From: Rhodospirillaceae bacterium
GTDB taxonomy: Bacteria; Pseudomonadota; Alphaproteobacteria; UBA8366
DNA length: 34,832 nt
Direction: 5' to 3'
Assembly: GCA_002715005.1 (NCBI GenBank)
Contig: PAXN01000022.1
Span: forward strand, 18,955 to 53,786
Shown here one piece after another: positions 10,225-25,433 of this stretch. Each line of letters begins with the position of its first letter. The stretch's first letter is position 1. The translations under genes and the position numbers were made by a program. Under the pieces are notes generated by a model. It was not told where the DNA came from. It worked only from the letters and a program-made list of their open reading frames with translations, and made no database searches.

Positions 10225-11088
10225 ATGAGTGCCGATGCACACCACGAACAACCCCACGATTATCATTTAGTGGATCCGAGCCCTTGGCCAGCTGCTGGCG
10301 CTGCTGCGGCGTTTATATTGTTTTTCGGGCTTATTCTATACATGCACCCAAGCACTTTAGGCGATGGCCTTGAAAAAACAGTTGCTAGCTTTGGCTTTTG
10401 GATATTTATGCCCGGCTTGCTAATGGTCATGGCGACGATGTGGGTGTGGTGGCGCGATGTTATTCACGAGTCAAATGTTGGGGGACATCACACACCTGTT
10501 GTGCAGCTAGGGCTTCGTTACGGGATGATGTTGTTTATCGCCTCGGAAATTATGTTCTTTGCGGCATTTTTCTGGGCTTTTTTCGATGCTAGTCTTTATG
10601 CGGGTGAAGCCCAGCAAGTAGCGCGTACAGCGGCGACGGGCGGCGTATGGCCGCCGAAAGGTATAGAGACTTTCGATGCCTTCGACATACCGTTTATGAA
10701 TACGCTGATTTTACTGTTGTCTGGTTGTACCGTGACCTGGGCTCATCACGCTTTGCGTGAGGGTAATCAGAAAGATTTGGTACGGGGCTTGGGCTACACG
10801 ATCGTCCTCGGCATCGCTTTTACTGCTTTGCAGGCTTACGAATATGTTCATGCAAGCTTCACGATAGGGAGCGGAATTTACGGTTCAACTTTTTATTTGG
10901 CGACGGGCTTCCACGGCTTCCATGTCATCGTAGGTACCATTTTCCTGACGGTGTGTTATTTCCGTGCGCGTGGGGGCCAATTCAAGCCCGATCATCATTT
11001 TGGACTTGAAGCAGCAGCCTGGTACTGGCACTTCGTTGACGTGGTCTGGCTATTCCTCTTCTGCTGTGTTTATTGGTGGGGCGGCTGA
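10225..11088 (+). CDS. ctaE: Cytochrome c oxidase subunit III
   Basis: Subunit III stabilises the catalytic core and lines a lipid-filled oxygen path. The 287 aa product has seven predicted helices. It carries the family landmarks: FIASEIMFFAAFFWAFFDAS (the conserved Glu and Phe run), the WPPKGI loop, and the C-terminal TGFHGFHVIVGTIFL and WYWHFVDVVWLFLF blocks. A strong ribosome binding site (AAGGAGAGG) precedes the ATG. It is the last oxidase structural gene; a degraded DUF983 reading frame follows before surf1. Also named coxC. Confidence 0.98.
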   Translation: MSADAHHEQPHDYHLVDPSPWPAAGAAAAFILFFGLILYMHPSTLGDGLEKTVASFGFWIFMPGLLMVMATMWVWWRDVIHESNVGGHHTPVVQLGLRYGMMLFIASEIMFFAAFFWAFFDASLYAGEAQQVARTAATGGVWPPKGIETFDAFDIPFMNTLILLLSGCTVTWAHHALREGNQKDLVRGLGYTIVLGIAFTALQAYEYVHASFTIGSGIYGSTFYLATGFHGFHVIVGTIFLTVCYFRARGGQFKPDHHFGLEAAAWYWHFVDVVWLFLFCCVYWWGG

Positions 11089-11139
11089 TCTTTTCTCAGG
11101 TTTGACCGGCCGGCTTCTGATATCACGGTTTCTGTCGAA

Positions 11140-11483
11140 TTGCGCTACCGATGCCCTAGATGCGGCATCGGCAAGCATCGTATCCGTTTTTTAATCGTGT
11201 CTGATATTTATGAATATTGTAATCTAGCTTCTAAAGCCGGGGCGAGCGGTGTCAGGTGGGCGATTTTTTTATGTTTATCATTGCGTCGGCCGCCGCCGGA
11301 TTGACGTTGGGGGTCGGTTCGGTTTTTGCTCTGCCCAAGTGAGTGCATATGTTTTTGTGCATACCGTTTATACTTAGTGGATCGGGTTTCTTGCTACGCC
11401 CCTTTAAGTCCGTTTTGATTGCGCTACAATATCATCTTAAAGCTAACGATAGCTGCCTTGATACGTTTAGTGAAGAGGACTAG
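11140..11483 (+). pseudogene. Degraded DUF983 gene between ctaE and surf1
   Basis: No intact frame fills the 398 bp between ctaE and surf1, but pieces of a DUF983 protein are readable. From 11143 one frame reads RYRCPRCGIGK, the CxxC zinc-like opening of DUF983, followed by a poor version of its second Cys pair (YEYC at 11209-11220). From about 11259 the similarity moves to another frame (GDFFMFIIASAAAG), indicating a net one-base loss. That frame is cut by TGA at 11340-11342 and then continues with LLRPFKSVLIALQYHLKAND at 11391-11450, which is the DUF983 C-terminal signature, ending at TAG 11481-11483, 3 nt before surf1. No ATG opens the first part. DUF983 sits at exactly this place in many alphaproteobacteria. 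A sequencing error could explain one lesion but hardly frameshift plus stop plus lost start. Confidence 0.75.
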
Positions 11484-11486
11484 TGA

Positions 11487-12182
11487 ATGGCCTTCCGTCC
11501 CAAATTAGTGCCAACCCTATTTACCATACCCGCTTTGATTGCGCTGTTGGCGCTGGGCTCATGGCAGGTGCAACGGTTATATTGGAAAGACGCGCTGATA
11601 GATAAGCTGCAATCTCGAGCCAGCGCTGCCGCAATCGAGCTGTCTGCCAATCCAGAAGACCTAGATGCCCTCGAGTATAAACGTATTTCGGTAGAGGGTC
11701 AGTTCGACCATGCTAATGAATTTCATCTAGTCAATCGGTCGTTGAACGGCAACCCCGGTGTTCACATTATTACGCCATTGATCCGCGCTAATGGAGATGT
11801 TGCTCTTTTGGTAAACCGCGGCTGGGTGCCGTTTGATAAGAAATCGCCATCGCAAAGAGTAAACGGTCAAATCACGGGGTCGGTTAAGGTGGAGGGAATT
11901 GTCCGGCTCGTAAAGGGACCGGGACTATTTACGCCCAAAAATGAACCGAAGAAAAATTTTTGGTTTTTCATCGACCCACCCACCATGGGGCGGCTTGCCA
12001 AGCTTTCTGTTCAGTCTCGGTATTACTTGGTGGATGGCAATAAAGCCGTGCCTGGCGGTTTTCCTATTGGGCGCCAATGGACGCTGAAAATTCGGAACGA
12101 TCATCTGCATTACGCTATCACGTGGTACGCGCTAGCAATTGCTCTTTTGGCGATATATGTGCTGTACCATAGAAAGTCGTAG
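11487..12182 (+). CDS. SURF1 family oxidase assembly protein
   Basis: SURF1 (Shy1 in yeast) helps insert heme a into oxidase subunit I. The 231 aa product has the expected layout: an N-terminal helix (about residues 8-25) followed by LGSWQVQRLYWK, a large periplasmic domain with VNRGWVP, and a C-terminal helix preceded by NDHLHYAITWYALA. The ATG at 11487 has GAGG 9 nt upstream. It completes the oxidase locus and is followed after 6 nt by the M32 peptidase gene, so transcription may continue into the next group. Confidence 0.95.
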   Translation: MAFRPKLVPTLFTIPALIALLALGSWQVQRLYWKDALIDKLQSRASAAAIELSANPEDLDALEYKRISVEGQFDHANEFHLVNRSLNGNPGVHIITPLIRANGDVALLVNRGWVPFDKKSPSQRVNGQITGSVKVEGIVRLVKGPGLFTPKNEPKKNFWFFIDPPTMGRLAKLSVQSRYYLVDGNKAVPGGFPIGRQWTLKIRNDHLHYAITWYALAIALLAIYVLYHRKS

Positions 12183-25112: not shown

Positions 25113-25217
25113 AGTGAGTAGGCACTTAGTCCGTTAATTTGATACCACGGTGTGCGTAGAGAGCGTTGCGCAGCAATTCTGAGCCGGTTAAACTAACCCT
25201 GAATAAACCTTAAGACC

Positions 25218-25410
25218 CTAGCGGGAGAGACCGATGTGGTTCGGGCTACATCGGCGCCGAAGGAGCAACCAGCCCTGGAATCTCTCAGGCAAATGGACCG
25301 TTAGGCGAGGGAACTCTGGAAAGCAGGCTCGGCATGGGTATGTCGTCCTCACCGAAGGGGTAAACCGGGAAATACCGGCGATACTCTCAGGTTCCGTGAC
25401 AGAGCTGGGC
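25218..25410 (+). ncRNA. Tandem glycine riboswitch
   Basis: Two glycine aptamers lie head to tail in the 354 bp leader of gcvT. The first has GGGAGAG (25223-25229), GCCGAAGGAGCAA (about 25255-25267) and CTCTCAGGCAAA with GGACCG (about 25282-25300). The second has GGAACTCTGGAAAGCAG (about 25309-25325), CACCGAAGGGGTAAA (about 25351-25365) and CTCTCAGG with ACAGAG (about 25384-25404). These are the conserved cores of the Rfam glycine class. In most bacteria glycine binding turns on the downstream gcv genes; a hairpin just after the second aptamer may be the expression platform. Confidence 0.95.
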
Positions 25411-25412
25411 GG

Positions 25413-25433
25413 CGACCCTAACTCTTGGGGTCG
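25413..25433 (+). terminator. Hairpin after the glycine riboswitch, likely expression platform
   Basis: CGACCCTA and TGGGGTCG form an 8-bp stem (one G-U pair) around the loop ACTCT. It starts 8 nt after aptamer 2 and is followed by a T-rich but interrupted stretch (TTCGTTGTTGGCTTT). It could act as a weak intrinsic terminator. The loop ACTCT is complementary to AGAG at 25401-25404, the 3' strand of the aptamer-2 basal helix, which offers a possible ligand-controlled switch. The ribosome binding site of gcvT (GGAG, 25453-25456) is beyond the hairpin. Confidence 0.45.

Follow-up and report, generated by a model that had tools for sequence, protein, structure and literature searches.

A decayed cox-linked DUF983 gene between intact cox3 and surf1 genes in an alphaproteobacterial genus

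Main finding

Directly between cox3 and surf1 of Rhodospirillaceae bacterium GCA_002715005.1 (genus g1) lies a degenerate reading frame that we interpret, with a probability of roughly 0.94, as a pseudogene of the cox-linked form of DUF983 (type A, defined below), inactivated in the ancestor of this organism and its congener RS386, drifting approximately neutrally since then, and carrying a later frameshift in the genome studied here. DUF983 is a small gene, widespread in alphaproteobacteria and normally located inside the cytochrome oxidase cluster. The window, i.e. the whole stretch of DNA that was analysed, comprises 34,832 nt of contig PAXN01000022.1, from an assembly of 64 contigs that is about 94% complete (G000). 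The congener (Rhodospirillaceae isolate RS386, PBOR01000015.1; G001) is another species of g1, available as a separate assembly rated 100% complete. The features of the locus are listed in Table 1.

Table 1. Features of the cox3-surf1 region, in window coordinates
Feature	Position	Strand	Evidence
cox3 (cytochrome c oxidase subunit III), intact, upstream neighbour	10225..11088	+	ORF; omega 0.03 vs congener
cox3 stop	11086-11088	+	TGA codon
N-terminal piece (SVELRYRCPRCG...) of type-A DUF983 pseudogene	11131..11262	+	type-A profile 28.9 bits; alignment
1-nt deletion (frameshift) relative to congener, in run of T	11263..11265	+	pairwise alignment
Middle piece (FFMFIIASAAAGLTLGVGSVFALPK), second frame	11265..11339	+	inside PF06170 match 11265-11432
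In-frame TGA at conserved Trp (PPxW) of intact relatives; also in RS386	11340..11342	+	alignment
C-terminal piece, 46 codons + TAG	11343..11483	+	PF06170 E 2e-4; type-A profile 41.8 bits
surf1, intact, downstream neighbour	11487..12182	+	PF02104 E 1.9e-47; omega 0.19 vs congener

Lesions of the remnant

An uninterrupted frame with a start codon is not found in the remnant, which combines a missing start, a 1-nt deletion and an internal TGA. Neither ATG nor GTG occurs in its frame from the cox3 stop to the CPRC motif (11152-11163), and the sole TTG in this stretch, at 11140, aligns to an internal leucine; in RS386 the only start codon is a GTG that overlaps the end of cox3. The frame change is real, as an earlier note on this DNA had reported, but alignment with the congener shifts it from about 11240-11260 to 11263-11265, where GAT-TTTTTTATG, one base short, faces GATGTTCGTTATG in RS386. 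The CPRC motif, the TGA and the segment LLRPFKSVLIALQYHLKA at 11391-11444 lie exactly where that note had placed them. The remnant's frame closes with a TAG at 11481-11483, which leaves 3 nt up to the start codon (ATG) of surf1. The remnant has also lost residues of its motifs: the first cysteine of the second CxxC has become tyrosine (at 11209), with the same change in RS386, while the first CxxC pair is intact only in the genome studied here, and the GDG motif is lost in this genome and broken in RS386 too. The comparison with a close relative that had been suggested thus yields the same TGA in RS386 and no uninterrupted frame there. A search against Rfam returned no RNA element in the cox3-surf1 gap.

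Assignment to the cox-linked subfamily

The Pfam model PF06170 matches the gap at window positions 11265-11432 (C28:30219-30386) across one internal TGA, with E 5e-7 and 31.9 bits, above the curated cut-off of 22.6 bits. Taken alone, the C-terminal piece scores 22.1 bits, just below this cut-off, and the N-terminal piece gives no match to Pfam DUF983. Only two of the 54 PF06170 matches in the order contain an internal TGA, those of this genome and of its congener. This profile search, which had likewise been proposed, recovered a single intact copy elsewhere in the genome, and that copy is of a different type.

Among intact DUF983 copies of the order, two types can be told apart. Type A is linked to cox genes, standing just before surf1 in the genomes checked, and has the motif DSGDGPAVFV, exactly or in a closely similar form; in type B the motif is RTDDIAPYFTI or something close to it, and the end is usually GDEQH-like. 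Both occur together in several genomes (G002, G006, G004, G010, G011, G017, G019 and G033). A profile of intact type-A proteins matches both the N-terminal and the C-terminal piece of the remnant (Table 1), a type-B profile matches neither, and in the DUF983 tree the remnant pieces fall within type A, with a support of 100 for the split between the types. The remnant resembles intact type-A genes in position, in length (the gap is about 400 nt), in its residual CPRC and LLRPFKxxLIALQY motifs and in phylogenetic placement, but differs from them in lacking a start, in its frameshift and TGA, in the lost cysteine and GDG motif, and in the absence of coding constraint. With type B it shares the Pfam family, and an intact type-B copy is present on contig C26 of the same genome; however, type B is a separate subfamily, 15-25% identical to the remnants of the two congeners, and does not adjoin oxidase genes here.

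Age and neutrality of the decay

Over 112 aligned codons, the remnants of the two congeners differ by 20, 19 and 22 substitutions at the first, second and third codon positions (chi-square p 0.89); in six genes of the cox locus third-position substitutions dominate. The omega of the remnant between the two genomes is 0.60 (bootstrap 0.34-1.03), which falls within the range that a neutral simulation gives when its transition share is set to the one observed (median 0.70, 95% range 0.40-1.34). The intact neighbours have omega values from 0.014 (coxA) to 0.24 (TauE-like), bearing out the earlier description of an inactivated gene among intact neighbours. COX1 gives a single match in the genome, and CtaA is also present.

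Because both genomes, which stand at a synonymous divergence of about 0.3, share the TGA, the cysteine-to-tyrosine change and the loss of GDG, the inactivation, as read from the sequences, is older than the split between this organism and RS386. The suggestion of recent decay is therefore not supported. The inactivation is probably younger than the split from genus g3, whose gap has no recognisable similarity to the remnant.

Alternative explanations

That the gene is in truth intact and was garbled in sequencing or assembly is a very improbable account. The assembly is in 64 contigs, and the 1-nt deletion behind the frameshift, being situated in a T run, could itself have arisen in sequencing, but none of the remaining lesions depends on it; since the TGA and the cysteine-to-tyrosine change recur in a separate assembly of another species, and the substitutions ignore the reading frame, we do not attribute the decay to error. 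Readthrough of the TGA as tryptophan or selenocysteine, with a protein still being made, deserves almost no weight, even though the TGA falls exactly on a conserved tryptophan codon: cox3 in the same locus terminates with TGA, the remnant also lacks a start and carries a frameshift, a metal-binding cysteine is gone, and the substitution pattern is neutral. Barely any probability attaches, too, to the idea, raised in the earlier note, that the gene has moved elsewhere and that the copy on C26 is the relocated functional DUF983. The genome has no intact DUF983 apart from this copy (C26:38613-38867), which is constrained relative to that of the congener (omega 0.08), but it is type B by profile (239.6 bits against 67.0 bits for type A), it groups with type-B copies of G002, G006, G004 and G010, which also carry type A, and it is flanked by unrelated metabolic genes near nuo. 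As the only other copy in the genome is an older paralogue that relatives also possess, some of them alongside an intact type A, we conclude that DUF983 has not moved. A type-A copy might, strictly speaking, lie in sequence missing from the genome, which is about 94% complete; there is no type-A DUF983 elsewhere in the congener. Type B, kept and constrained in g1, is an old paralogue and at most a candidate substitute, and g3 has neither type.

A further possibility concerns the part after the TGA, which might be translated by restart at ATG 11349 into a single-helix microprotein of 44-45 amino acids. This microprotein might couple to the translation of surf1 or still serve oxidase assembly, in which case the gene would be reduced and not lost. 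The frame is open in both congeners with a common ATG, and the C-terminal piece (46 codons) has an omega of 0.36 (P = 0.07 against neutrality), while its share of third-position substitutions gives P = 0.06. These statistics are not significant, however, no clear ribosome-binding site is visible by eye, and nothing comparable exists in g3. The last stretch of the piece is identical over about 34 nt between the two genomes, and its last 30 nt or so probably double as the surf1 leader. The hint of constraint comes partly from this conserved stretch just before surf1; we discount it as a weak signal that may reflect chance or constraint on the leader, and we regard both the microprotein and a role for it as improbable.

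Distribution in relatives and across the class

The pseudogene of g1 has a place in a wider series within this family of genomes, in which DUF983 is intact in g2, g5 and two of the three g4 genomes, recognisable but inactivated in g1, eroded beyond recognition in g3, and separately lost in one g4 genome. A tree of six cox-locus proteins places g1 and g3 as sister groups with a support of 100. The three g3 genomes (L135, L136, L137), one of which (G003) is rated 100% complete, all retain the cox genes and surf1 and have no DUF983 of either type; their cox3-surf1 gap is 308-335 nt long and non-coding, and neither ORF profiles nor blastn detect DUF983 homology in it. In G008, of genus g4, a gap of 270 nt stands where its congeners G004 and G010 carry DUF983, so that the cox-linked copy has been lost independently of g1; because this genome is 64% complete, we claim only a local loss. 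The COX1 of G008 looks split, with one match piece containing a TGA at G008:C32:85083-85364 (L138); either the oxidase gene is broken or, in a genome this incomplete, the assembly is at fault.

We also surveyed 96 genomes, one per family of Alphaproteobacteria, with SURF1 as a stand-in for the aa3-type oxidase locus. Among the 69 genomes besides our own that carry SURF1, DUF983 lies beside surf1 in 45, only elsewhere in 9, and is absent from 15, with adjacency judged from coordinates transcribed by hand. SURF1 without DUF983 is thus common across the class, and our case is one more instance of it.

Implications for DUF983 function

The losses in g1, g3 and G008, together with the absence of DUF983 from 15 of the 69 SURF1-bearing families, indicate that DUF983 is dispensable for keeping an aa3 oxidase, a conclusion already implied by its wider distribution. 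For the aa3 locus of this lineage, the dispensability that had been proposed gains support, and g3 manages without any DUF983. What we see is ordinary gene loss, repeated in the class, with the oxidase intact, and since absence of DUF983 is common in alphaproteobacteria the case is a modest one. The process would be loss of an accessory gene by relaxed selection followed by neutral erosion, the function of DUF983 having perhaps become unnecessary in the clade of g1 and g3.

The type-A product would be a small membrane protein with a zinc ribbon that probably serves the aa3 oxidase as an assembly or accessory factor; its membrane helices and zinc ribbon are predictions. On the basis of sequence signatures, DUF983 has been grouped with COX4-like small subunits (PMC4013037), with which it shares the character of a small membrane protein encoded in COX operons; a role as a subunit is putative. 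The literature searched does not name PF06170, and the PDB contains no convincing structural relative, the best match being a ribosomal zinc-ribbon protein (E 0.006). A series running from intact through decayed and eroded to lost, with the aa3 oxidase genes kept, offers a natural series for the function of DUF983.

Other observations

The stand-alone type-B DUF983 (L003:8581-8958, minus strand) adjoins a phytanoyl-CoA-dioxygenase-like ORF, with nuo genes nearby; the surrounding region is collinear with that of the congener. Elsewhere in the window, Rfam identifies a tandem glycine riboswitch at 25212-25406 with two aptamers (72.8 and 38.0 bits); an aminomethyltransferase (gcvT-like) ORF begins just downstream at 25425, and a gcvP-like ORF extends from 27006.
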